From contig NZ_CP115775.1 in the NCBI RefSeq assembly GCF_027913035.1, forward strand, positions 620,001-684,000: a DNA stretch of 64,000 nt, in the 5' to 3' direction. The position numbers and the translations under genes were made by a program. Shown here piece after piece: positions 4,344 through 34,790 of this stretch (its first letter is position 1; the number at the start of each line of letters is the position of its first letter). This DNA comes from Paracoccus albus. Its GTDB lineage: Bacteria > Pseudomonadota > Alphaproteobacteria > Rhodobacterales > Rhodobacteraceae. Under the pieces are notes generated by a model that was not told the origin of the DNA, did no database searches, and saw only the letters and a list, made by a program, of their open reading frames with translations.

Positions 4344-4353
4344 TCGTATACGA
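4344..4353. promoter_or_regulatory. Candidate GntR/FadR-type operator TCGTATACGA
   Basis: A perfect 10-bp palindrome lies in the 48-bp gap between the divergent AbrB-family and GntR genes, ending 8 bases before the GntR ATG. It fits the loose GT-N2-AC core pattern known for FadR-subfamily regulators. A related half, TTGTATCC, lies 8 bp to its left. Position and shape suggest autoregulation plus control of the permease; this is inference. Confidence 0.5.
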
Positions 4354-4361
4354 AAGGATGC

Positions 4362-5054
4362 ATGAATAAAACCGGAAAATTTTCTGACGCAATCGCTGCC
4401 CCGGCCGAGCGCGGCCTGCACGGCGATAGTGTCTATGAACGCCTGTGCGAGGATATCAGGTCTGGCGTGCTTTCCCCCGGGAGTCGCTTGCGCGAGGCAG
4501 AGATCGCAGAACGGCACGCTGTCAGCCGCACACCTGTCCGCGAAGCAATCCGCCGGCTGGAGGCAGAGGGGCTGGTCGATCATTTGCCGCGCAGCGGGGC
4601 GATCGTCAGGAAGCTGGATTATTCCGAGACGATGGAGCTCTATGAGATGCGGACTGTGCTGGAAGGCACAGCAGCGAGGCTGGCCGCCCGCGCCGCATCG
4701 TCGGTCGAACTCGAGGAACTTCAGGCGATCAATGACGAGATGCGCGAGGCTGACGGTCACGCAGACAGGCTGGTCACTTTGAACCGGCAGTTCCATCACC
4801 TGCTGCATGAGGCGGCGCGAAATCGTTTCCTTATCAAATCAATGGCCTCGGTCGACAACACTTTACTGATACTCGGCGCGTCGAGCATGCATCTGCCGGA
4901 ACGCGCAGTCGCTGCGGTTGATGAACATTCAAAAGTTCTCGACGCGCTTCTGGCGCGAGACGGTCTGGCCGCTGAAAGTGCAATGCGCCGGCATATGGAA
5001 CGCGCCCAGTTCGCCCGACTTAAGATATTGCGCCATTCAGCAGAGCTATCCTGA
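4362..5054 (+). CDS. GntR-family transcriptional regulator, FCD/FadR subfamily
   Basis: About 230 residues. An N-terminal winged helix (residues ~20-85, with SRLREAEIAERHAVSRTPVREAIRRLEAEGLV, the typical GntR signature) is followed by an all-helical FCD domain. The FCD domain carries histidines (NRQFHHLLHEAA, VDEHSKVLDALL, MRRHMERA) that usually bind a metal and a small organic acid. It is divergent from the AbrB-family gene and probably controls it and the following TSUP gene. The ATG is only 8 bases from the palindromic operator, leaving little room for a leader. Confidence 0.88.
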   Translation: MNKTGKFSDAIAAPAERGLHGDSVYERLCEDIRSGVLSPGSRLREAEIAERHAVSRTPVREAIRRLEAEGLVDHLPRSGAIVRKLDYSETMELYEMRTVLEGTAARLAARAASSVELEELQAINDEMREADGHADRLVTLNRQFHHLLHEAARNRFLIKSMASVDNTLLILGASSMHLPERAVAAVDEHSKVLDALLARDGLAAESAMRRHMERAQFARLKILRHSAELS

Positions 5055-18330: not shown

Positions 18331-19944
18331 TTACAGATCCATCAGAAGGCGGCGCGGGTCCTCAAGCGCTTCTTTCACGCGGACAAGGAAAGTTACCGCG
18401 CCTTTGCCATCAACGATCCGGTGGTCATAGCTCAGCGCCAGATACATCATCGGGCGGATGACGATCTCGCCGCCAACGACCATCGGGCGATCCTGAATCT
18501 TGTGCATCCCAAGAATCCCCGATTGCGGCGGGTTCAGGATGGGCGAGGACATGAGCGAGCCGTAAACACCACCGTTTGAGATAGTGAATGTGCCACCCTG
18601 CATTTCATCCATGGTCAGCTTGCCGTCACGGCCCTTTTTACCAAGTTCGCCGATCTCTTTTTCGATCTCGGCAAAGCTTTTGTCATCGGCATCCTTGACG
18701 ACCGGGACAACCAGACCCTGCGGGGTGCCGACGGCCACGCCCATATTGACGTAGTTCTTGTAGACGACCTCGGTGCCGTCTATTTCGGCATTGACCTCTG
18801 GTACCTCTTTCAATGCATGGCAGCAGGCTTTGACGAAGAAGGACATGAAGCCAAGCTTGACGCCATGCTTCTTTTCGAACTGGTCCTTGAACTCGTTGCG
18901 CAGCTCCATGATCGCCTTCATGTCCGCCTCATTATAGGTGGTCAGCATGGCGGCGGTGTTCTGCGCGTCTTTCAGACGGCGGGCGATGGTCTGGCGCAGG
19001 CGGGTCATCTTCACCCGCTCTTCACGCTCGGACTGATCGGCGCTGCGCGGTGCGGTAGCGGCCTTTGCCGGTGCCTTGTCCGACTTGGCCGGGGCGGATG
19101 CGGCCTTGGCCACGTCTTCCTTCATGACCCGGCCGTCCTTGCCCGATCCCTGAACAGCGTCGCGGCTGATGCCCTTTTCGGCCATGGCCTTCTTGGCCGA
19201 TGGCGCGTCTTCGACATCGCCGCGCTCTTTGACGTCTTCAGGTCCCGCACCCGGAGATCCGACATCGCCCGCTTCTTCGACTTCGGGATCCTCTGTCTCG
19301 GGTTCCTGCTCATTCGCCTCACCGGAAGAGGCGGCACCTTCCGCACCTTCGGTGATGACGGCAAGGCGAGCACTGGCATCGACAGTGGCACCCTCTTCGG
19401 CGATGATTTCCGCCAGAACGCCAGCCGCAGGTGCGGGCACTTCTACCGAAACCTTGTCGGTCTCCAGTTCGCACAGCATCTCATCGGCGGCTACGGCGTC
19501 GCCAACCTTCTTGAACCACGTCGCGACCGTCGCTTCGGTCACGGATTCGCCCAGGGAGGGCACCATTACATCAACTGCCTTACCGCTCATCTTCTTCTGT
19601 CCTTCCTGAGCATTGCTGGCCGGCTTTTTGGCGGCCGGTTCTTCGTTCGCGGCCGGTTCGGCAGCTTGGTTTGTTTCATCGGCGGGCGCAGATGCGGCGC
19701 CCTTACCGGTTTCATCTATCTGGGCCAACAGTGCATTCGGCGCGACGGTTTCCCCCTCCGTGGCAACGATCTCCGCCAGCACACCCGCGGCTGGGGCAGG
19801 GACCTCTACCGTCACCTTGTCGGTTTCCAGCTCACACAGCATTTCATTGACGGCAACGGCATCACCCGGTTTCTTGAACCAGGTGGCGACCGTCGCCTCT
19901 GTGACGGATTCGCCCAATGCAGGCACGCGGACTTCGGTTGTCAT
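18331..19944 (-). CDS. sucB: Dihydrolipoamide succinyltransferase (E2o) with two lipoyl domains
   Basis: 537 residues. Two lipoyl domains lie at ~1-77 (lipoyl lysine K43 in ETDKVTVE) and ~121-200 (K164 in ETDKVSVE), joined by an Ala/Pro/Glu linker. A peripheral-subunit-binding domain follows at ~255-290 ([21 protein letters not shown]), then the catalytic domain with DHRIVDG near residue 508. E2 moves the succinyl group from SucA to CoA in the 2-oxoglutarate dehydrogenase complex. Many SucB proteins have one lipoyl domain; here the two are about 80% identical. It starts 3 bases after sucA and is the last gene of the operon; no lpd follows. Confidence 0.96.
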
Positions 19945-19947
19945 CAG

Positions 19948-22914
19948 TTATCCCTCAATGCTGAGTGCGTCATTGACGAGCGCTTGCTGCTCGGCCTTGT
20001 GACGCGAGGCCAGACCGGTTGCGACAGATGCCGCAGCCGCACGGCCTGCATAACGCGCGCGAGCCGCCTTGTGTTCCAGTTTGTCCAGAACCCATTCCAG
20101 ATTCGGCTCGACAAATGTCCAGGCCCCCTGGTTCTTAGGTTCTTCCTGACACCAGACGATATCTGCATTGGCGAAGCGTCCAAGCTCTTTGGTCAGTGAT
20201 TGGGCGGGGAACGGATAGAACTGTTCCAGCCGCATCAGATAGACGTCTGTGATGCCACGCTCATCCCGCTCTTTCAGCAGGTCGTAATAGACCTTGCCAG
20301 AGCAGATGACGACGCGCTTGATCTTGTCATCGGCGACTAGTTCCGTTTCTGAATTTCCGCGCTCTGCATCGTCATGCAATACCCGGTGGAAGGTCGAGCC
20401 GGTCTGGAACTCTTCGGCCGTCGAGACCGCCATCGGGTGACGCAGCAAGGATTTCGGCGTCATGATCACCAGGGGTTTGCGGAAGCTGCGCAGGATCTGA
20501 CGGCGCAGGATATGGAAGTAGTTGGCTGGCGTCGTCACATTCGCGACAATCCAGTTATCCTCGGCGCTCATTTGAAGGAAACGCTCCAGCCGGGCAGAGG
20601 AGTGTTCAGGCCCCTGACCTTCATAACCATGCGGCAGCAACATCACGAGGCCCGACATGCGCAGCCATTTCTTCTCACCCGATGAAATGAACTGGTCGAA
20701 CATGATCTGCGCGCCATTGGCAAAGTCACCGAACTGGGCTTCCCACAGGGTCAGCGCGTTGGGTTCTGCCAGCGAATAGCCATACTCGAAGCCAAGCACC
20801 GCATATTCAGACAGCATGGAGTCGTGGACCTCATAGCGGGCCTGACCTTCGCGGATGTTGTTCAGGGGATAATAACGCTGCTCTGTCAGCTGATCGACAA
20901 AGGCCGAATGGCGGTGGCTGAATGTGCCGCGGGTCGAATCCTGACCGGTCAGGCGCACCGGGTGGCCATCCAGCAGCAGCGAGCCAAAGGCCAGTGCCTC
21001 GCCGGTCGCCCAATCGAAGCCCTTGCCAGAGTTGAACATTTCCTTCTTGGCTTCGATCAGCCGTCCCACCGTTTTGTGCAGGCTGATATCGGCGGGCGGC
21101 GTCGTCAGCGCCTTTCCGATTGCCGCCATGCTTTCCGCCGGAATGCCGGTATCGCCGGGGGTGTATTCCGTGCCCTCTTTCTCGAACCCGGTCCATTTGC
21201 CGTCCAGCCAATCGGCCTTGTTGGGCTTGAAACTCTTGCCGATGTCGAACTCTTCGTTCAGATGCGCCTGGAACGCAGCCTTCATGTCCTCGATCTCGCC
21301 TTCGGGGATCAGCCCGTCGGCGACCAGCCGGTCAGTGTAAAGTTGCAGGGTCGTCTTGTGGCCCTTGATTTCCTTATACATCAGCGGGTTGGTGAACATC
21401 GGCTCGTCACCTTCGTTGTGACCGAAGCGGCGATAGCAGAAGATGTCGATGACCACGTCCTTGTGGAATTTCTGCCGGAACTCGGTCGCGACCTTGGCGG
21501 CGTGGACCACCGCTTCGGGGTCGTCGCCGTTTACGTGGAAGATCGGGGCTTCCACCATCAGCGCGATATCGGTCGGATAGGGCGAGGTGCGGCTGAAATG
21601 CGGCGCGGTGGTAAAGCCGATCTGGTTGTTCACCACGATATGGATGGTCCCGCCGGTGCGGTGGCCGCGAATTCCGGAAAGCTGCAAACATTCCGCGACG
21701 ATGCCCTGACCTGCGAAAGCGGCATCGCCATGCAGCAGGATCGGCAGGACCTTCGTACGTTCAGGCGAGTCCTTCAGCTGATCGCCCTTTGCGCGGGCCT
21801 TGCCCAGCACGACCGGGTTCACGGCCTCGAGATGCGAAGGGTTCGCGGTCAGCGACAGGTGCACGACGTTCTCGTCGAATTCACGGTCCGAGGATGCGCC
21901 GAGGTGATATTTCACATCGCCCGAGCCATCCACGTCCTCGGGCTTGAAGCTGCCGCCCTGAAACTCGTGGAAGATCGCCCGGTAAGGCTTGTTCATCACA
22001 TTGGCCAGAACCGACAGTCGGCCACGGTGGGGCATGCCGATGACGATTTCCTTCACGCCAAGCGCGCCGCCGCGCTTGATGATCTGTTCCATCGCCGGGA
22101 TCAACGATTCACCGCCATCAAGGCCGAACCGCTTGGTTCCCATATATTTGACATGCAGGAACTTCTCGAAGCCCTCCGCCTCGACCAGCTTGTTCAGGAT
22201 GGCGCGGCGTCCTTCACGGGTGAACTGGATTTCCTTGCCGTAGCCCTCGATCCGCTCTTTCAGCCAGGCGGCTTCTTCCGGGTTCGAGATATGCATGTAT
22301 TGAAGCGCGAAGGTGCCGCAATAGGTCCGCTTCATGATCTCGTTGATCTGACGCATAGATGCGACTTCCAGCCCGAGAACATTGTCGATGAAGATCGGGC
22401 GGTCCATGTCGCCCGCCTTGAAGCCATAGGTTTCGGGCTGCAACTCACCATGATCTGGAACCTCACGAAGCCCCAGCGGATCCAGCTCGGCGTGAAGGTG
22501 GCCGCGGATCCGATAGGCGCGGATGAGCATCAGGGCGCGGATCGAATCCAACACCGCCTGACGCATCGCATCGGGCGTGATTTCCTTGCCCTTCTCGGTG
22601 GCCTTGGCTGCAATCTTTTCCATCGCGGCAGTCGCCTCGGCCTTGGAGGCCATCGGCCATTCTCCGGTCAGCGCGGCGATATTCTCTCCAGTCGGGGCAG
22701 GCGGCCAGTCGGCACGCTTCCAGCTTGGTCCGGCAGCTTCGGCTTGCGCATCTGCCGCGTCATCGCCAAGGGCAGCAAAGTACCGGTCCCATGCCTCATC
22801 CACTGCTGCCGGGTCCTTTGCCCATTGGCCGTAAAGCTGTTCGACATAGGTCGCGTTATGTCCCTGAAGGAAGGACGAGTCGTGAAAGTCGGCGTTTTTT
22901 GGTTGGTCGTTCAT
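19948..22914 (-). CDS. sucA: 2-oxoglutarate dehydrogenase E1 component
   Basis: 988 residues, normal for the family. Thiamine-diphosphate binding regions include GMPHRGRLSVLANV, GDAAFAGQGIVAE and HVNGDDPEAVVHA. The C-terminal half has FEYGYSLAEPNALTLWEAQF and LLPHGYEGQGPEHSSARLER. It decarboxylates 2-oxoglutarate and hands the succinyl group to SucB. The start at 22914 (MNDQPKNADFHDSS) matches the N-terminal E2-binding motif; the open frame continues upstream to 23127 but that part overlaps the DUF805 gene. It overlaps the DUF805 gene by 4 bases. Confidence 0.97.
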   Translation of the reverse strand: MNDQPKNADFHDSSFLQGHNATYVEQLYGQWAKDPAAVDEAWDRYFAALGDDAADAQAEAAGPSWKRADWPPAPTGENIAALTGEWPMASKAEATAAMEKIAAKATEKGKEITPDAMRQAVLDSIRALMLIRAYRIRGHLHAELDPLGLREVPDHGELQPETYGFKAGDMDRPIFIDNVLGLEVASMRQINEIMKRTYCGTFALQYMHISNPEEAAWLKERIEGYGKEIQFTREGRRAILNKLVEAEGFEKFLHVKYMGTKRFGLDGGESLIPAMEQIIKRGGALGVKEIVIGMPHRGRLSVLANVMNKPYRAIFHEFQGGSFKPEDVDGSGDVKYHLGASSDREFDENVVHLSLTANPSHLEAVNPVVLGKARAKGDQLKDSPERTKVLPILLHGDAAFAGQGIVAECLQLSGIRGHRTGGTIHIVVNNQIGFTTAPHFSRTSPYPTDIALMVEAPIFHVNGDDPEAVVHAAKVATEFRQKFHKDVVIDIFCYRRFGHNEGDEPMFTNPLMYKEIKGHKTTLQLYTDRLVADGLIPEGEIEDMKAAFQAHLNEEFDIGKSFKPNKADWLDGKWTGFEKEGTEYTPGDTGIPAESMAAIGKALTTPPADISLHKTVGRLIEAKKEMFNSGKGFDWATGEALAFGSLLLDGHPVRLTGQDSTRGTFSHRHSAFVDQLTEQRYYPLNNIREGQARYEVHDSMLSEYAVLGFEYGYSLAEPNALTLWEAQFGDFANGAQIMFDQFISSGEKKWLRMSGLVMLLPHGYEGQGPEHSSARLERFLQMSAEDNWIVANVTTPANYFHILRRQILRSFRKPLVIMTPKSLLRHPMAVSTAEEFQTGSTFHRVLHDDAERGNSETELVADDKIKRVVICSGKVYYDLLKERDERGITDVYLMRLEQFYPFPAQSLTKELGRFANADIVWCQEEPKNQGAWTFVEPNLEWVLDKLEHKAARARYAGRAAAASVATGLASRHKAEQQALVNDALSIEG

Positions 22915-23983: not shown

Positions 23984-24868
23984 TCAGCTTTTGATCGCCT
24001 TCAGCACGGCTTCACCAAGCTGGGCGGGGCTGTCGGCAACGACGATACCGGCGGATTTCATCGCCTCGATCTTCGATTCCGCATCGCCCTTGCCGCCCGA
24101 AACGATGGCGCCGGCATGACCCATCCGACGACCCGGAGGAGCCGTGCGCCCGGCGATGAACCCGGCGGTGGGCTTCCATTTGCCCTTCTTCTTCTGCTCG
24201 GCAAGGAATTCGGCGGCTTCCTCTTCTGCCGAGCCGCCGATTTCGCCGATCATTATGATGGATTCGGTTTCATCATCGTCAAGGAACATGCGCAGCACAT
24301 CGATATGCTCCATCCCCTTGATCGGGTCGCCGCCGATGCCGACAGCCGAGGACTGGCCGAGACCCACGTCAGAGGTCTGCTTCACGGCCTCATAGGTCAG
24401 CGTACCTGAACGCGAAACGACGCCGACCGAACCGCGGCGGAAGATGCTGCCCGGCATGATGCCGATCTTGCATTCGTCGGGGGTCATGATGCCGGGACAG
24501 TTCGGGCCGATCAGGGTCGAAGCCGAACCCTCAAGCGCGCGCTTGACCTTCATCATATCCAGCACCGGAATGCCTTCGGTGATCGCCACGATCAGCGGCA
24601 CTTCGGCGTCGATGGCTTCAAGGATCGAATCCGCCGCGAAGGGCGGGGGCACATAAATCGCCGTCGCATTCGCGCCGGTCTTCGCCACAGCCTCATGGAC
24701 CGAGTTGAAGACGGGCAGATCAAGGTGATCCGTCCCGCCCTTGCCGGGCGTCACGCCGCCGACGACCTGCGTGCCATAAGCAATCGCCTGTTCGGTGTGG
24801 AAGGTCCCCTGAGAGCCGGTGATGCCCTGGGTGATAACCTTGGTGTTCTTGTCTACGAGGATCGCCAT
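23984..24868 (-). CDS. sucD: Succinyl-CoA ligase alpha subunit
   Basis: 294 residues. CoA-binding Rossmann domain ([19 protein letters not shown]) and the phosphorylated histidine in [14 protein letters not shown] near residue 247. With SucC it converts succinyl-CoA to succinate, making ATP or GTP. It follows sucC after 5 bases in the operon. Confidence 0.97.
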
Positions 24869-24873
24869 CGGGA

Positions 24874-26067
24874 TTATCCTTTCACCGCTTTAACGATTTT
24901 TTCTGCGCCGTCCTTCAGGTCGTCGGCGGCGATCACGTCCAGGCCGGATTCGTTGATGATCCGTTTGCCTTCTTCGACATTGGTGCCTTCAAGGCGCACG
25001 ACCAAGGGGACCTTCAGCCCGACCTCTTTCACGGCGGCGACGATGCCTTCCGCGATGATGTCGCAGCGCATGATGCCGCCGAAGATATTCACGAGGATAC
25101 CTTTGACGTTTTCGTCCGAGGTGATGATCTTGAACGCCTCGGTCACCTTGTCCTTCGTCGCGCCGCCGCCGACATCGAGGAAGTTCGCCGGTTCCGCGCC
25201 ATACAGCTTGATGATGTCCATCGTCGCCATGGCAAGGCCCGCGCCGTTGACCATGCAGCCGATTTCACCATCGAGCGCGATATAGTTCAGGTCGTATTTC
25301 GACGCGGCGAGTTCCTTGGGGTCCTCTTCGGTCTCGTCGCGCAGGGCGAAGATGTCGTCATGGCGATAGAGCGCGTTGTTATCGAAGCCCATTTTGGCAT
25401 CGAGCGCTTTCAGATTGCCGTCTGTGGTGACGATCAGCGGGTTGATTTCCAGCATCTCCATGTCCTTCTCGATGAAGAGACGATAGAGATCCTTGACCAG
25501 CTTCACGCATTGCTTGACCTGGCCGCCCTTCAGGCCAAGGGCGAATGCCACGCGACGGCCGTGGAAATCGGACAGGCCCGAGGCCGGATCGACGCTGAAG
25601 CTGACGATCTTTTCTGGGGTCGAAGCCGCGACTTCCTCAATATCCATGCCGCCTTCGGTCGAGGCGACGAAGCTGACGCGGCTGGTCTGACGGTCGACCA
25701 GCAGGGCGAGATAAAGCTCGGTCTCAATGTCCGAACCGTCTTCGATATAGATACGGTTGACCTGCTTGCCAGCTTCGCCAGTCTGATGCGTGACCAGCGT
25801 GCGGCCCAGCATCTGGCGGGTCATTTCTTCCGCTTCCGAGGTCGATTTGGCCAGACGCACGCCGCCCTTATCGCCCGCTTCGGCTTCCTTGAATTTGCCC
25901 TTGCCGCGGCCACCTGCATGAATCTGGGCCTTTACGACCCAAAGCGGGCCGTCCAGTTCACCGGCTGCACGCTTCGCATCTTCGGCACGGGTCACGACGC
26001 GACCGTCGCTGACCGGGACGCCATAATCGCGCAGCAGCGACTTGGCCTGATATTCGTGGATGTTCAT
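24874..26067 (-). CDS. sucC: Succinyl-CoA ligase beta subunit
   Basis: 397 residues, the usual length. ATP-grasp domain with [17 protein letters not shown] and the C-terminal CoA-ligase domain with [16 protein letters not shown]. The start [18 protein letters not shown] at 26067 is the conserved one; upstream in-frame codons are discarded. It is the first gene of sucC-sucD-lipoprotein-DUF805-sucA-sucB, and the tandem palindromes at 26175-26205 lie about 110 bp upstream. Confidence 0.97.
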
Positions 26068-26174: not shown

Positions 26175-26205
26175 TGTGATCACGCAAAGAAATGCTGTGA
26201 TCACA
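26175..26205 (-). promoter_or_regulatory. Tandem TGTGATCACA operators upstream of the suc operon
   Basis: Two palindromes, CGTGATCACA (26184-26175 on the minus strand) and TGTGATCACA (26205-26196), are separated by 11 bp, giving 21 bp centre to centre, two helical turns. An arrangement with identical motif and spacing precedes sdhC at 30346-30376. A divergent glycosyltransferase gene begins 190 bp away on the other side and could also be affected. No regulator gene for it was recognised in the window. Confidence 0.75.
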
Positions 26206-26393
26206 TAATTTATGAAGGGTGATAGTGGGCTTGCTGGAACAACCGGCAAGTCGGGAATCGAATGGGAAATGAAACGGCTTTTCGTGCTTTCCGGGCTGAA
26301 ACTTAGCGACGCCAATCGTGCATTCAGGCCCGGCGGTTGGTTGCGCCTGCCGGCCGACCAATTCAATCTGTGGCGACTCGAAGGATGGATTCA

Positions 26394-27473
26394 ATGCGCT
26401 CCGAAACAATTCCCCGACCTGCACGATGGGGTATCGTGGCAACAATAGATGAACCGGCAAGCCTGATCGCCGCCTGGGTTGCCTATCACCTCACAATCGG
26501 CGCGAGCGAGATTCACATCTTCTTCGACCGACCGAATTCAGAAGCCCGGAGCCTGCTGGAAGGGATGAGCGGCGTTTTCCTTCATGCTTCTGGGGAGGAT
26601 GGGTGGAGAGGCCTCACATCCGGCCGCCGACCGGGGCGGCATCAGGCACGTCAGGCATATAACGCGACGCGCATCCTGAATGAAACAACGCTCGATTGGC
26701 TGGTGCATTGTGACGCGGACGAGTTCCTGAGGGTATCGGACCCGCTTGGAGATGAACTGGCGAACGTTCCCGACAATATCGAATGGCTGCTGATCGAGGT
26801 GCAAGAGCGTGTCTGGACCGGCGCCGAAACTGAAGGCGATATTTTTGCTGGGGCGTTTCGGCTCCCGCTGGCTGATTTCGAATTGATAGGACCGGGACTT
26901 TATGGCGCGGCGCGGGCCATGCGCATGAATGCAGGGCTAAGCGGGCACGATGTCGGTAAGGCTTGTGTGCGGGCAGGCAGGGGGCATGTCATGAACATTC
27001 ACCGACCGGCGAGGCACAGGCATTCAAAGCGCTGCGATCTGAGATTTGCAAAATGCCGGAGCGCATGCCTGACGCATTTCAACGGAATGACTCGTTTGCA
27101 ATATATCATGAAGATGCTTCGGCGCGGCCTCGTATTGCTTGATGGGCTGCCCTCCCCTTCGTCTGCGGCGCGCAAACAGCAATTTGAGACTGCGCTGTCA
27201 CATGCCGGCGATGCAGAGGCGTTGAATATGTTGTGGCAGGATATGCAGTATATCAGTGCGGAAGAGCTGGAAATTCTGAAGGAGTTGGAAGCTATCCGGT
27301 TCGACGATCTGAATATTGCAGAGATTGCGCAAAAAATGTTTCAGAACAGGCTGCGCCTGAACCCGGCCGATTTTGACCGCACACTGATTGCATACGAGGC
27401 CGCGGCGATTGGCGAACTAGTCGATCGGCTGGGCTTTGCGCCCGACGCGGTTATGGCAGAAGTACCCCGTTAA
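26394..27473 (+). CDS. Glycosyltransferase family 2-like protein
   Basis: About 359 residues. The N-terminal half looks like the Glyco_tranf_2_4 domain: RWGIVATIDEPASLIAAWVA, GASEIHIFFDRPNS, then the metal-binding HCDADEFLRV near residue 115. Members of this group are often linked to surface polysaccharide or are encoded near them, but the acceptor here is unknown. The ATG at 26394 has GAAGGA about 8 bases upstream; one at 26385 is also possible. It stands alone, divergent from sucC and convergent with mdh, sharing a terminator with it. Confidence 0.78.
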   Translation: MRSETIPRPARWGIVATIDEPASLIAAWVAYHLTIGASEIHIFFDRPNSEARSLLEGMSGVFLHASGEDGWRGLTSGRRPGRHQARQAYNATRILNETTLDWLVHCDADEFLRVSDPLGDELANVPDNIEWLLIEVQERVWTGAETEGDIFAGAFRLPLADFELIGPGLYGAARAMRMNAGLSGHDVGKACVRAGRGHVMNIHRPARHRHSKRCDLRFAKCRSACLTHFNGMTRLQYIMKMLRRGLVLLDGLPSPSSAARKQQFETALSHAGDAEALNMLWQDMQYISAEELEILKELEAIRFDDLNIAEIAQKMFQNRLRLNPADFDRTLIAYEAAAIGELVDRLGFAPDAVMAEVPR

Positions 27474-30345: not shown

Positions 30346-30376
30346 TGTGATCACAGCGCCAGATACTGTGATCACA
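30346..30376 (+). promoter_or_regulatory. Tandem TGTGATCACA operators upstream of the sdh operon
   Basis: Two perfect copies of TGTGATCACA at 30346-30355 and 30367-30376, 11 bp apart and 21 bp centre to centre, match the pair upstream of sucC. A possible -10 box TATCTA lies at 30388-30393, which would put the downstream copy over the -35 region; this geometry allows repression by occlusion or class-II type activation. Confidence 0.78.
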
Positions 30377-30524
30377 AAGTGCGGATTTATCTACATTTTT
30401 GTCATGGGGCTGGACAAGTACGGGTGACAGGCGCGAAAAAAGCCGTATGACATCTTGCGAAATCCAGCCAGCCCGCGCGCCAGCTGCTGCCGTGGGCCCG
30501 CAATAAAGACTGAAAGGGGACAAC

Positions 30525-30914
30525 ATGGCTGACGTGAACCGGGATAACCGGCCGCTTTCACCTCATTTGCAGGTCTACCGGCTGCCATTGGCCGCCATAA
30601 CCTCGATTTTGAACCGCGCGGCGGGCCATGGCATGGTTGCTGGTTTGCTGCTTCTGGCATTCTGGCTGCTTGGTGCCGCCGTTGGTGGCGGTATGTGGGA
30701 AAGCGCCGATTGGCTGACGCGCAGCTGGTTCGGATTTCTCGTGCTGCTCGGTTCTTGCTGGGCGCTGTGGTACCACTTCCTGGCCGGTATCCGTCATTTC
30801 TTCTATGACGCGGGCGAAGGGCTGGAGATCGAGACCGCGCATAAGACCAGCATCGCGATCATTGCAGGTTCGGTCGTCCTGACCCTGCTGAGCCTTGTCA
30901 TCTACCTTCTGTAA
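30525..30914 (+). CDS. sdhC: Succinate dehydrogenase cytochrome b556 subunit
   Basis: 129 residues, three membrane spans. The opening NRPLSPHLQVYRLPLAAITS is the SdhC signature and a heme-ligand histidine candidate lies in YHFLAGIRHFFYD. It anchors the dehydrogenase in the membrane and passes electrons to ubiquinone. First gene of the sdh operon, about 150 bp after the tandem operators. Confidence 0.95.
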   Translation: MADVNRDNRPLSPHLQVYRLPLAAITSILNRAAGHGMVAGLLLLAFWLLGAAVGGGMWESADWLTRSWFGFLVLLGSCWALWYHFLAGIRHFFYDAGEGLEIETAHKTSIAIIAGSVVLTLLSLVIYLL

Positions 30915-30923
30915 GGGGACACC

Positions 30924-31316
30924 ATGCGTTACGTCACCCCCCGCAAAGCCGCCGTCGGAATGGGCGCGTCCCATACCGGGACCGAACATCACTGGTGGAT
31001 GACGGTCAGTTCCGCCGCATTGGCGCTGCTGACGCCGTCCTTCCTGATGGTCATCGGCACGGCGCTGCAACTGCCTGATCGTGCTGACATCCTGCTGTAT
31101 TTCACGCGTCCCTATCCGGCGATTGTCGTCGCGATCTTCATGACGCTTGGGATGATGCATTTCATCAAAGGCACGCGGATCATGATCGACGACTATTTCG
31201 ATCATACCGCACGTAAGGTGGCTATCCTGTTTTCGGTCGTTTTCGGCTGGGCGGTGATCGCCATGACACTTTTCGCACTCGCGCGCGTACAACTTGCCTT
31301 CGCACAGGCCGTCTGA
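30924..31316 (+). CDS. sdhD: Succinate dehydrogenase membrane anchor subunit
   Basis: 130 residues with three membrane spans. Typical features are the N-terminal [19 protein letters not shown] and the [15 protein letters not shown] stretch, which holds a heme/quinone-site histidine region (MMHFIKG). It starts 9 bases after sdhC and lies 7 bases before sdhA. Confidence 0.94.
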
Positions 31317-31323
31317 GGTTCCC

Positions 31324-33165
31324 ATGGCTGAGAATAACGAAAACCAAGCGACCGAAGCGGCCGATACGAAATACCCTTACGAGGTTCATGATTACGACGT
31401 TGTCGTCGTGGGTGCCGGTGGTGCGGGCCTGCGTGCGACGCTCGGCATGGCTGAACAGGGCCTTCGCACGGCCTGCGTGACCAAGGTCTTCCCGACCCGT
31501 TCGCATACCGTCGCGGCGCAGGGTGGGATTGCCGCCAGCCTGTCCAATATGGGGCCGGATAACTGGCAGTGGCATATGTATGACACGGTCAAAGGCTCTG
31601 ACTGGCTGGGCGATACCGACGCGATGGAATATCTGGCGCGCGAGGCACCCAAGGCTGTTTACGAGCTGGAACATTACGGTGTTCCCTTCAGCCGGACCGA
31701 GGAAGGCAAGATCTATCAGCGCCCCTTCGGCGGCCATACGACCGAATTCGGCGAAGGCCCGCCCGTGCAGCGCACATGTGCCGCTGCCGACCGCACCGGC
31801 CACGCCATCCTGCACACACTTTATGGCCAGTCGCTGAAGAACAATGCTGAATTCTTCATCGAATATTTCGCGCTCGACCTGATCATCACCGATGGCAAAT
31901 GCACCGGCGTCGTCTGCTGGAAGCTGGACGATGGCACCATGCATGTCTTCAACGCCAAGATGGTGGTGCTGGCCACGGGCGGTTATGGCCGCGCCTATTT
32001 CAGCGCGACCTCAGCCCATACCTGCACCGGCGATGGCGGCGGCATGGTGGCCCGCGCCGGTCTGCCGCTTCAGGATATGGAATTCGTGCAGTTCCACCCG
32101 ACCGGCATCTATGGCTCTGGCTGCCTGATCACCGAGGGCGCACGTGGGGAAGGCGGGTATCTGACCAACTCCGAAGGCGAGCGCTTCATGGAGCGTTATG
32201 CCCCGACCTATAAGGATCTTGCGTCCCGCGATGTGGTCAGCCGCTGCATGACCATGGAAATCCGCGAAGGCCGCGGCGTGGGTGAGGAAAAGGATCATAT
32301 CTTCCTGAACCTCATGCATCTTGATCCCGATACGCTGGCCGAACGTCTGCCGGGTATTTCTGAATCGGCCAAGATCTTCGCCGGTGTCGATGTGACGCGC
32401 GAGCCGATTCCGGTTCTGCCGACCGTTCATTATAATATGGGCGGCATTCCGACGAACTATTGGGGCGAGGTGCTGAACCCGACCGAAGAATCGCCTGATC
32501 AGGTATTCCCCGGCCTTATGGCCGTGGGCGAGGCTGGCTGCGCATCTGTGCATGGCGCGAACCGCCTCGGCTCAAATTCGCTCATTGACCTTGTCGTCTT
32601 TGGCCGTGCTGCGGCGATCAAGGCGGGCGAAGTCGTCGATCCGGGCACGCCGGTCCCGGCGACGAATACGGCAGCGGTAGAGCAGATTCTCAACCGCTTC
32701 GACAGCATCCGAAACGCCAATGGCGGGACGCCGACCGCACAGTTGCGGGACCAGATGCAGCGCACCATGCAGGCTGACGCCGCCGTCTTCAGGACTGACA
32801 AGACGCTGGCAGAAGGCGTTGAGAAGATGAAGGAAATCGCAGCGAAGATTGACGACCTTCACGTCACGGATCGCGGGTTGATCTGGAACACCGACCTGAT
32901 GGAAACGCTGGAGCTGACCAACCTTATGCCCAACGCGATGGCCACCATCGTTGCGGCAGAGGCGCGCAAGGAATCGCGCGGTGCTCATGCCCATGAGGAT
33001 TATCCGGATCGCGACGATGAGACATGGCGCAAGCACAGTCTTGCGTGGGTTGATGGCAACAATGTGACATTGGAGTATCGCCCCGTCCATCTTGATCCGC
33101 TGACGAAAGAAACAGAAGGTGGTATCGATCTGAAGAAGATTGCACCGAAAAAGAGGGTTTATTGA
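31324..33165 (+). CDS. sdhA: Succinate dehydrogenase flavoprotein subunit
   Basis: 613 residues. FAD-binding [20 protein letters not shown], the covalent flavin histidine in [15 protein letters not shown], and the catalytic region with [21 protein letters not shown] and [17 protein letters not shown]. It oxidises succinate to fumarate in the TCA cycle and respiratory chain. The ATG at 31324 follows sdhD closely; the stop shares one base with the next start codon (TGATG). Confidence 0.97.
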
Positions 33166-33862: not shown

Positions 33863-34010
33863 TGCTGGCCACCCGCCAAATAACAAAGGCAGGGCGTCAC
33901 TCGCCCCTGCGCCACCGCGGTGTGGCACCTGACTGCAAGCTACGGCCCATATGCGGCCATCAATTCGACGCCTTCCAGGTCCGCAGGGCCCAGAAGAAAG
34001 GAGCCTGAAA

Positions 34011-34790
34011 ATGGTCGAGTTTTCCCTTCCCAAGAACAGCAAGATCAGGGTCGGCAAGACCTGGCCGAAGCCGGAAGGCGCGACCAATCTGCGCAAGTTC
34101 AAGATCTATCGCTGGGATCCGGACACGGGTGAGAACCCGCGGTTGGATACCTATTTCGTTGATCTGGACAAATGCGGACCGATGGTTCTTGACGCGCTCA
34201 TCAAGATCAAATCAGAGATCGACCCTACCTTGTCCTTCCGCCGTTCCTGCCGCGAGGGGATCTGCGGCTCCTGCGCCATGAACATCGACGGTGGCAACCA
34301 TCTGGCCTGTATCTATGGTATTGACGAAGTGAAGGGCGACGTGAGCATTTATCCGCTGCCGCATATGCATGTCGTCAAAGATCTGATCCCGGACCTGACG
34401 CATTTCTATGCACAACATGCCTCGATCAATCCTTACCTGATCACCAAGTCGCCGGAACCCGGTAAAGAGTGGAAACAGTCCATCGACGACCGCAAGAAGC
34501 TGGACGGTCTGTATGAGTGCATCATGTGCGCGTCATGCTCGACCTCTTGCCCAAGCTATTGGTGGAATGGCGACAAATATCTTGGCCCGGCAACGCTGCT
34601 TGCGGCCTATCGCTGGATCATCGACAGCCGCGATGAGGCGACGCCGGAACGTCTGGATCAACTGGAAGATCCGTTCAAGCTGTATCGTTGCCACACGATT
34701 ATGAATTGCACCAATACCTGTCCGAAAGGGCTGAATCCGGCGAAGGCCATCGCTGAGATCAAGCACATGCTCGTCGACCGGATCGTCTGA
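34011..34790 (+). CDS. sdhB: Succinate dehydrogenase iron-sulfur subunit
   Basis: 259 residues. The N-terminal domain carries the [2Fe-2S] cysteines ([17 protein letters not shown] followed by HLAC). The C-terminal domain carries the cysteines of the [4Fe-4S] and [3Fe-4S] clusters ([12 protein letters not shown] and [17 protein letters not shown]). It passes electrons from SdhA to the quinone site. The ATG at 34011 has AAGGAG at good distance. Last main gene of the sdh operon. Confidence 0.97.

Follow-up and report, generated by a model that had tools for sequence, protein, structure and literature searches.

Paired palindromes before the suc and sdh operons of Paracoccus albus are probable operators of the GntR-family regulator AkgR

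Here we describe paired 10-bp palindromes in front of the suc and sdh operons of Paracoccus albus, found in a window of 64,000 nucleotides (contig NZ_CP115775.1, positions 620,001 to 684,000). Our best explanation, held with considerable confidence, is that they are paired operators of the regulator AkgR and serve joint activation of both operons by adjoining dimers. Most likely P. albus shares the AkgR system of its family relative Rhodobacter sphaeroides: the probable regulator is, as there, of the GntR family, the core GTGATCAC is the same, and the predicted targets sucCD, 2-oxoglutarate dehydrogenase and sdh agree. AkgR as an activator, its predicted targets and the presence of GTGATCAC among its sites are taken from published work. 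The pairs, their conservation and spacing, the steady distance from the sdh pair to a -35-like element, the palindrome before akgR and the co-occurrence of regulator and pair are read from genome sequence. While regulator, core motif and targets are already known in R. sphaeroides, what is worked out here is the pairing at 20-21 bp, the position relative to the -35 element, the single site at akgR, a fumC case and the distribution within the family; we do not claim the pairing as new to print.

On the + strand the suc pair reads TGTGATCACG-N11-TGTGATCACA at window positions 26175-26205, with one mismatch against the perfect pair, and ends 107 bp ahead of the start of sucC, a minus-strand gene. 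On the strand of the gene, the operator distal to sucC, TGTGATCACA (26196..26205), begins 138 bp before the start codon and the proximal one, CGTGATCACA (26175..26184), begins 117 bp before it. The 11-bp spacer between them (26185..26195) keeps its length in relatives and varies in sequence. Upstream of sdhC a perfect TGTGATCACA-N11-TGTGATCACA occupies 30346-30376, its distal operator at 30346..30355 and its proximal operator at 30367..30376, both on the + strand, with 148 bp between the end of the pair and sdhC. The core GTGATCAC occurs four times in the window, always inside these two pairs, and the operator centres lie 21 bp apart in each. The original prediction had placed a pair with this centre-to-centre distance at 26175-26205 upstream of sucC and the same pair with the same spacer upstream of sdhC, and had seen no further copy of the core in the window; all three statements are borne out.

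The genes behind the two pairs diverge. Leftward, on the minus strand, follow sucC (24874..26067; succinyl-CoA synthetase beta, the first gene of the suc operon, its start codon set by alignment to relatives), sucD (23984..24868; succinyl-CoA synthetase alpha, identified by its CoA-binding and CoA-ligase domains and by relatives), sucA (19948..22914; 2-oxoglutarate dehydrogenase E1) and, downstream of sucA, sucB (18331..19944; dihydrolipoyl succinyltransferase). Rightward, on the + strand, follow sdhC (30525..30914), the first gene of the sdh operon, sdhD (30924..31316; assigned by position and homology to relatives), sdhA (31294..33165 counted from the first TTG, the true start probably being near 31324) and sdhB (33951..34790 counted from the first ATG, the true start probably near 34011), with mdh in between the two operons. 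Between sucC and mdh the window also holds a gene with a family-2 glycosyltransferase domain (26337-27473, + strand). Since it begins some 130 bp away from the suc operators, the intergenic region is common to this gene and sucC. In the relative G110, mdh immediately precedes the sucC pair, whereas the glycosyltransferase gene intervenes in this window.

It is hardly credible that the pairs arose by chance, or that they are functionless sequence inherited from a remote common ancestor. The four core copies are by themselves not very rare: dinucleotide shuffles of the window contain 1.09 copies of GTGATCAC on average and at least four copies in 4 of 100 cases, which amounts to no more than mild enrichment. 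The pair, in contrast, did not occur in any of 100 shuffled windows when sought with up to three mismatches, and its reversed control occurs at no place in the whole genome at the same tolerance and in none of 198 genomes of the family. In the genome (3.76 Mb, five contigs) the pair with up to three mismatches is rare, being present at three places only: suc, sdh and a third place at C1:1351546, which has three mismatches and lies within long reading frames. The perfect 10-mer TGTGATCACA occurs nine times, once at suc, twice at sdh, once directly before a GntR gene (C1:1571107) and five times within reading frames; a single mismatch extends the count to 68 places, about 59 of which carry that mismatch. 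We took the five copies at 342350, 458271, 550693, 2062342 and 3054087 as chance, the frames that contain them being longer than 110 codons. The perfect sites outside long frames thus mark three promoters, those of suc, sdh and the GntR gene.

Conservation likewise argues against chance. With up to three mismatches the pair is present in 60 of 61 genomes of the genus, the genome studied here included, and with up to two mismatches in 163 of 198 genomes of the family, a sample that holds nearly one genome per genus. Across the class it was found in 5 of 337 genomes, namely in four of the five that belong to the family (the fifth, G114, has 20-bp pairs instead) and in one of the 332 outside it. 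The location of the pair relative to genes was checked in the genomes that were read, a subset of those counted. Ten relatives were read over 40 kb, and all ten have both pairs, one before sucC and one before sdhC. Neither of the two outcomes that would have spoken against the original prediction, a pair common at random or one missing before suc and sdh in close relatives, was obtained. Among 103 pairs in the scanned loci, 67 precede sucC, 35 precede sdhC and one (L049) precedes sucA in a genus with a different gene order; the pairs before sucC and sdhC lie 95-190 bp from the gene start. The addition of 40 regions, with one pair counted per genome and gene and with L049 and L247 left out as unassigned, gave 129 pairs. 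Their spacers are almost wholly different (128 different sequences among the 129), while operators and spacing are kept. This supports the earlier proposal of a dedicated regulator common to suc and sdh. The search pattern behind the 129 pairs let a single inner position per operator arm vary, between T and C or between A and G. Beyond the palindrome the operator continues on both sides as TTTGTGATCACA...TGTGATCACAAA. A third pair is present in one genus: in L247 (genome G101), at about 601-631, it stands before a fumC-like gene, whose product would catalyse the next step of the TCA cycle and matches the class II fumarase model with an E value of 1.3e-68 over the 159 residues read.

The distance between operators is kept in most of the genomes examined. 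When the gap was left free between 0 and 30 bp in 36 genomes, 62 of the 75 places listed had their operators 21 bp apart, six had them 20 bp apart and seven were scattered. The corresponding figures in 20 further genomes, mostly chosen for their surplus of hits, were 33, 6 and 22 of 61. The 20-bp pairs serve the same promoters in other genomes, since sucC lies downstream in 13 and sdhC in 2 of 15 loci read from a search at this spacing. The proposal that the operators are exactly two helical turns apart therefore holds for most pairs and is too strict in its "exactly".

Some suc promoters carry more than two operators. Those of G194, G250 and L182 have three in 21-bp steps, and L188 has four before sucC with a last step of 26 bp; the loci noted for such arrays, of three and once four operators mostly in 21-bp steps before sucC, are L317, L318, L182 and L188. 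Separately, L296 (G128), L304 (G120), L299 (G184) and L300 (G166) have palindrome pairs 12-15 bp apart in fetched stretches that gave no suc or sdh match. Other GntR proteins that share the core may use these pairs as operators, or they may be chance matches in coding sequence.

At sdh the pair also keeps a distance to a putative promoter. In the window a -35-like GTGACA (30424..30429, + strand) follows the pair by 47 bp and a -10-like TATGAC (30446..30451, + strand), found by consensus scan only, follows the -35-like element by 16 bp. Among 59 genomes, NTGAC occurs after the sdh pair at 45-47 bp in 20 and at 56-59 bp in 33, hence in 53 against 1.5 expected from shuffling. The shorter distance is that of all 18 genomes of the genus and of 2 of the 41 others; the longer one is found in 33 of the 41 genomes outside the genus. 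Of the remaining six, one has NTGAC at 68 bp, G256 at 77 bp, G174 at 39 and 75 bp, and three have none from 30 to 90 bp after the pair. Some sdh promoters bear extra copies elsewhere. The stricter GTGAC is present 30-80 bp past the pair in 49 of the 59 genomes against about 3.3 expected, and it also follows 20-bp sdh pairs, at 69 bp in L293 and at 59 bp in L284. These classes of distance lie about one helical turn apart, which is suggestive of a fixed register with the promoter, kinship within each class being still contained in the counts. At suc, a scan for sigma-70 elements gave best scores equal to those of shuffled sequence, and the sole notable feature is T-T at offsets 46-47, in 18 of 21 genomes of the genus and 30 of 49 elsewhere.

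The regulator of the pair is probably AkgR, a protein with GntR and FCD domains, as judged from motif, locus and distribution. We take RSP_0981 of R. sphaeroides to be AkgR; that the regulator in question here corresponds to it is probable from two secondary papers together with motif and synteny. In the portion of PMC4344238 available to us, the GntR regulator RSP_0981 is predicted to control sucCD, sdh and 2-oxoglutarate dehydrogenase, and the consulted text of PMC6365646 calls AkgR a transcriptional activator in R. sphaeroides and gives GTGATCAC among its sites. AkgR is not named in the excerpts of PMC5343134. Literature searches returned, as judged by title, nothing on these operators for TGTGATCACA and, among the matches listed, nothing relevant for GTGATCAC together with promoter and regulator.

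The original prediction had named CceR and AkgR and chosen neither; AkgR fits the motif with good confidence and CceR does not. CceR, a LacI-family protein, is likewise reported as a regulator of central carbon and TCA-cycle genes in the same bacteria, and it differs from AkgR in both protein family and motif. For R. sphaeroides, mdh and sdh are among the predicted targets of CceR (RSP_1663; PMC4344238, in part), and succinate and 2-oxoglutarate dehydrogenase belong to its regulon according to the consulted part of PMC11323563. However, the CceR motif given in the former excerpts, [A/G/T]GTT-N6-8-AAC[A/C/T], is not matched by TGTGATCACA on inspection of the palindromes, and the CceR regulon of Paracoccus denitrificans is reported not to include these enzymes (PMC11323563, in the part consulted). 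It is thus very unlikely that CceR acts through these pairs; CceR may act on suc and sdh through other sites. AkgR is, by the same excerpts of PMC11323563, which put sdh and 2-oxoglutarate dehydrogenase under CceR, not the only reported regulator of these genes. As for another familiar class of operator, a CRP-type site is TGTGA-N6-TCACA. We rejected this candidate: the half-sites TGTGA and TCACA abut in the palindrome and the N6 gap is missing. R. sphaeroides is moreover not predicted, in the accessible part of PMC4344238, to have proteins analogous to CRP.

Outside the window, the putative akgR of this genome (L078 = L107), whose product has GntR and FCD domains, lies at G000:C1:1570442-1571098 on the minus strand and reads, directly before its ATG, TTTTGTGATCACAAAAC, which contains one perfect palindrome. 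It is one of 24 GntR matches in the genome, 21 of which score above the curated cut-off. A GntR gene stands within the 40 kb around suc and sdh in two of the ten relatives; both products are 70-77% identical to L078, and the next-best paralogue in this genome is 36% identical to them. In G110 the akgR orthologue directly follows sdhB. In Cereibacter ovatus and C. flavus, members of what we take to be the genus of R. sphaeroides, neither sdh nor suc lies within 10 kb of akgR, so the neighbourhood expected of it is not seen there. The only match of the pair in the class outside the family (G403, locus L153) directly precedes a gene for an AkgR-like GntR/FCD protein that is 28% identical; at about 970-1028 of L153, the start of this gene is preceded by three sites centred on GATC and spaced 20 and 21 bp. 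In a comparison with solved structures, the AkgR alignment profile best matches McbR of E. coli (4p9f; residues 19-213, E value 1.1e-35).

The palindrome at akgR itself is found in part of the family. Among the best 80 of 575 named akgR loci, chosen by score rather than at random, 24 have GTGATCAC no more than 45 bp upstream of the akgR match, against 0.65 expected from its rate elsewhere in those loci; many of the 80 end at contig ends. In the remaining 56, some of them incomplete, the palindrome was not found. Similarly, among 30 best-scoring unnamed loci that were listed first (two of them unscorable), 10 of the 28 scorable ones have the palindrome 17-26 bp upstream of the start, and in 18 it was not found there. 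About two thirds of akgR loci are thus without it, and autoregulation is not general. Six palindrome-less akgR loci (L109, L112, L114, L121, L122 and L126) have in common a GTGCTTG(G)CTG-like stretch just before the start codon.

Presence of AkgR and presence of the pair go together across the family. A 20- or 21-bp pair is present in 172 of 177 genomes that bear AkgR, and 18 of 21 genomes that lack AkgR are without it, G079, G155 and G173 being the exceptions (Fisher 2.7e-18, 198 genomes, uncorrected for kinship). For this count scoring covered no more than 15 first-look candidates in each genome, and AkgR was called absent when the best E value was above 1e-50 (12 genomes with no hit at 1e-20 and 9 with weak hits), a cut chosen after the scores had been seen. 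With absence defined more strictly as no hit at 1e-20, the pair is missing in 11 of 12 genomes and present in 174 of 186. Eleven AkgR-bearing genomes were counted through a 20-bp pair with up to three mismatches, each read at suc or sdh, and G117 was counted as pair-bearing with a 21-bp pair before sucC whose outer bases are altered. The AkgR-bearing genomes without a pair are G120, G181, G206, G214 and G225, which are 71-92% complete; G120 was so counted with two hits, at 13 and 22 bp, that are not placed at suc or sdh, its sucC being cut by a contig end. In 16 genomes lacking both AkgR and the pair, the palindrome is absent from the 260 bp upstream of sucC. In a SucC phylogeny with 78 rows, AkgR has to change state 10 times and the pair 7 times on the best tree. 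Support is weak, with 8 of 75 inner branches starred, and two independent pairs lie on supported branches. With just these two, independence of the co-occurrence from kinship is not established, and kinship is a possible partial cause of it.

A different FCD-type GntR protein could use the pair, either the one encoded in the window (4362-5054) or one of the paralogues L080 and L082. Such paralogues are indeed present in this genome, and for a distant Pseudomonas homologue use of this core palindrome has been proposed (PMC6365646, in part). That homologue is of the PS417_07240 type, found in deoxyribonate clusters of Pseudomonas and Burkholderia. According to the same excerpts it is 32% identical to AkgR and has GTGATCAC upstream of its own gene, but it belongs to a catabolic cluster with a single palindrome at -47 to -40, and TCA-cycle targets are not mentioned in that text. 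We consider use of the pair by another such protein quite improbable. Of the groups examined, it is the AkgR group whose genes carry an upstream palindrome, whose presence goes along with that of the pair, and which is encoded close to suc or sdh in some genomes. The GntR protein of the window has good matches (E value below 1e-50) in 33 of 198 family genomes, with a link to the pair of p 0.13. Its gene, 21 kb from the suc pair, was our first candidate and was dropped for its other palindrome and the lack of significant co-occurrence: just upstream of it, at 4344-4353, stands TCGTATACGA, and the gene is divergent from a membrane-protein-like frame. This protein is probably a local regulator unrelated to suc and sdh.

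With AkgR as the preferred regulator, we propose that one dimer would occupy each palindrome, so that two dimers would sit 20-21 bp apart on the same side of the helix, roughly five to six turns ahead of the -35 region. They would contact each other and RNA polymerase, and sucCD-sucAB and sdhCDAB would be activated together when 2-oxoglutarate must run through to fumarate. Where the lone palindrome at the akgR start codon is present, AkgR probably represses its own gene. The dimers, their common face, cooperativity, activation in this species, autorepression and the effector are what we infer here.

Many FCD GntR proteins are repressors, and the palindrome near the akgR start codon suits repression. 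AkgR might accordingly bind the pairs as a repressor, or act through looping, rather than as a cooperative activator of two dimers. We regard this as unlikely: the sdh pair stands at a conserved distance ahead of the -35-like element and does not overlap it, and a fixed 20-21 bp would suit neighbouring dimers better than a loop. AkgR is, besides, the transcriptional activator of the published account (PMC6365646, in part).

A more specific form of the activator proposal, for which we see about even chances, is that AkgR acts as an obligate pair of dimers whose helical register is fixed twice, from dimer to dimer (20-21 bp) and from the pair to RNA polymerase, the distance from the pair to the -35-like element being about 46, 57 or 68 bp in steps of one turn. 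If this is true, paired operators would mark the stretch from 2-oxoglutarate to fumarate as activated in one unit and a single operator would mark autorepression of akgR, while lineages would tune output by arrays of three or four operators or would add fumC.

The analysis ties a promoter element to a known but little-studied regulator and shows that this kind of control over the central TCA-cycle steps is common in the family. The regulon becomes readable from sequence, as two operators 20-21 bp apart and, at sdh, a kept distance to the promoter. In R. sphaeroides both AkgR and CceR may act on the genes of succinate and 2-oxoglutarate dehydrogenase. For P. denitrificans, where the available part of PMC11323563 places these enzymes outside the CceR regulon, AkgR is a candidate for the control of TCA-cycle oxidation.
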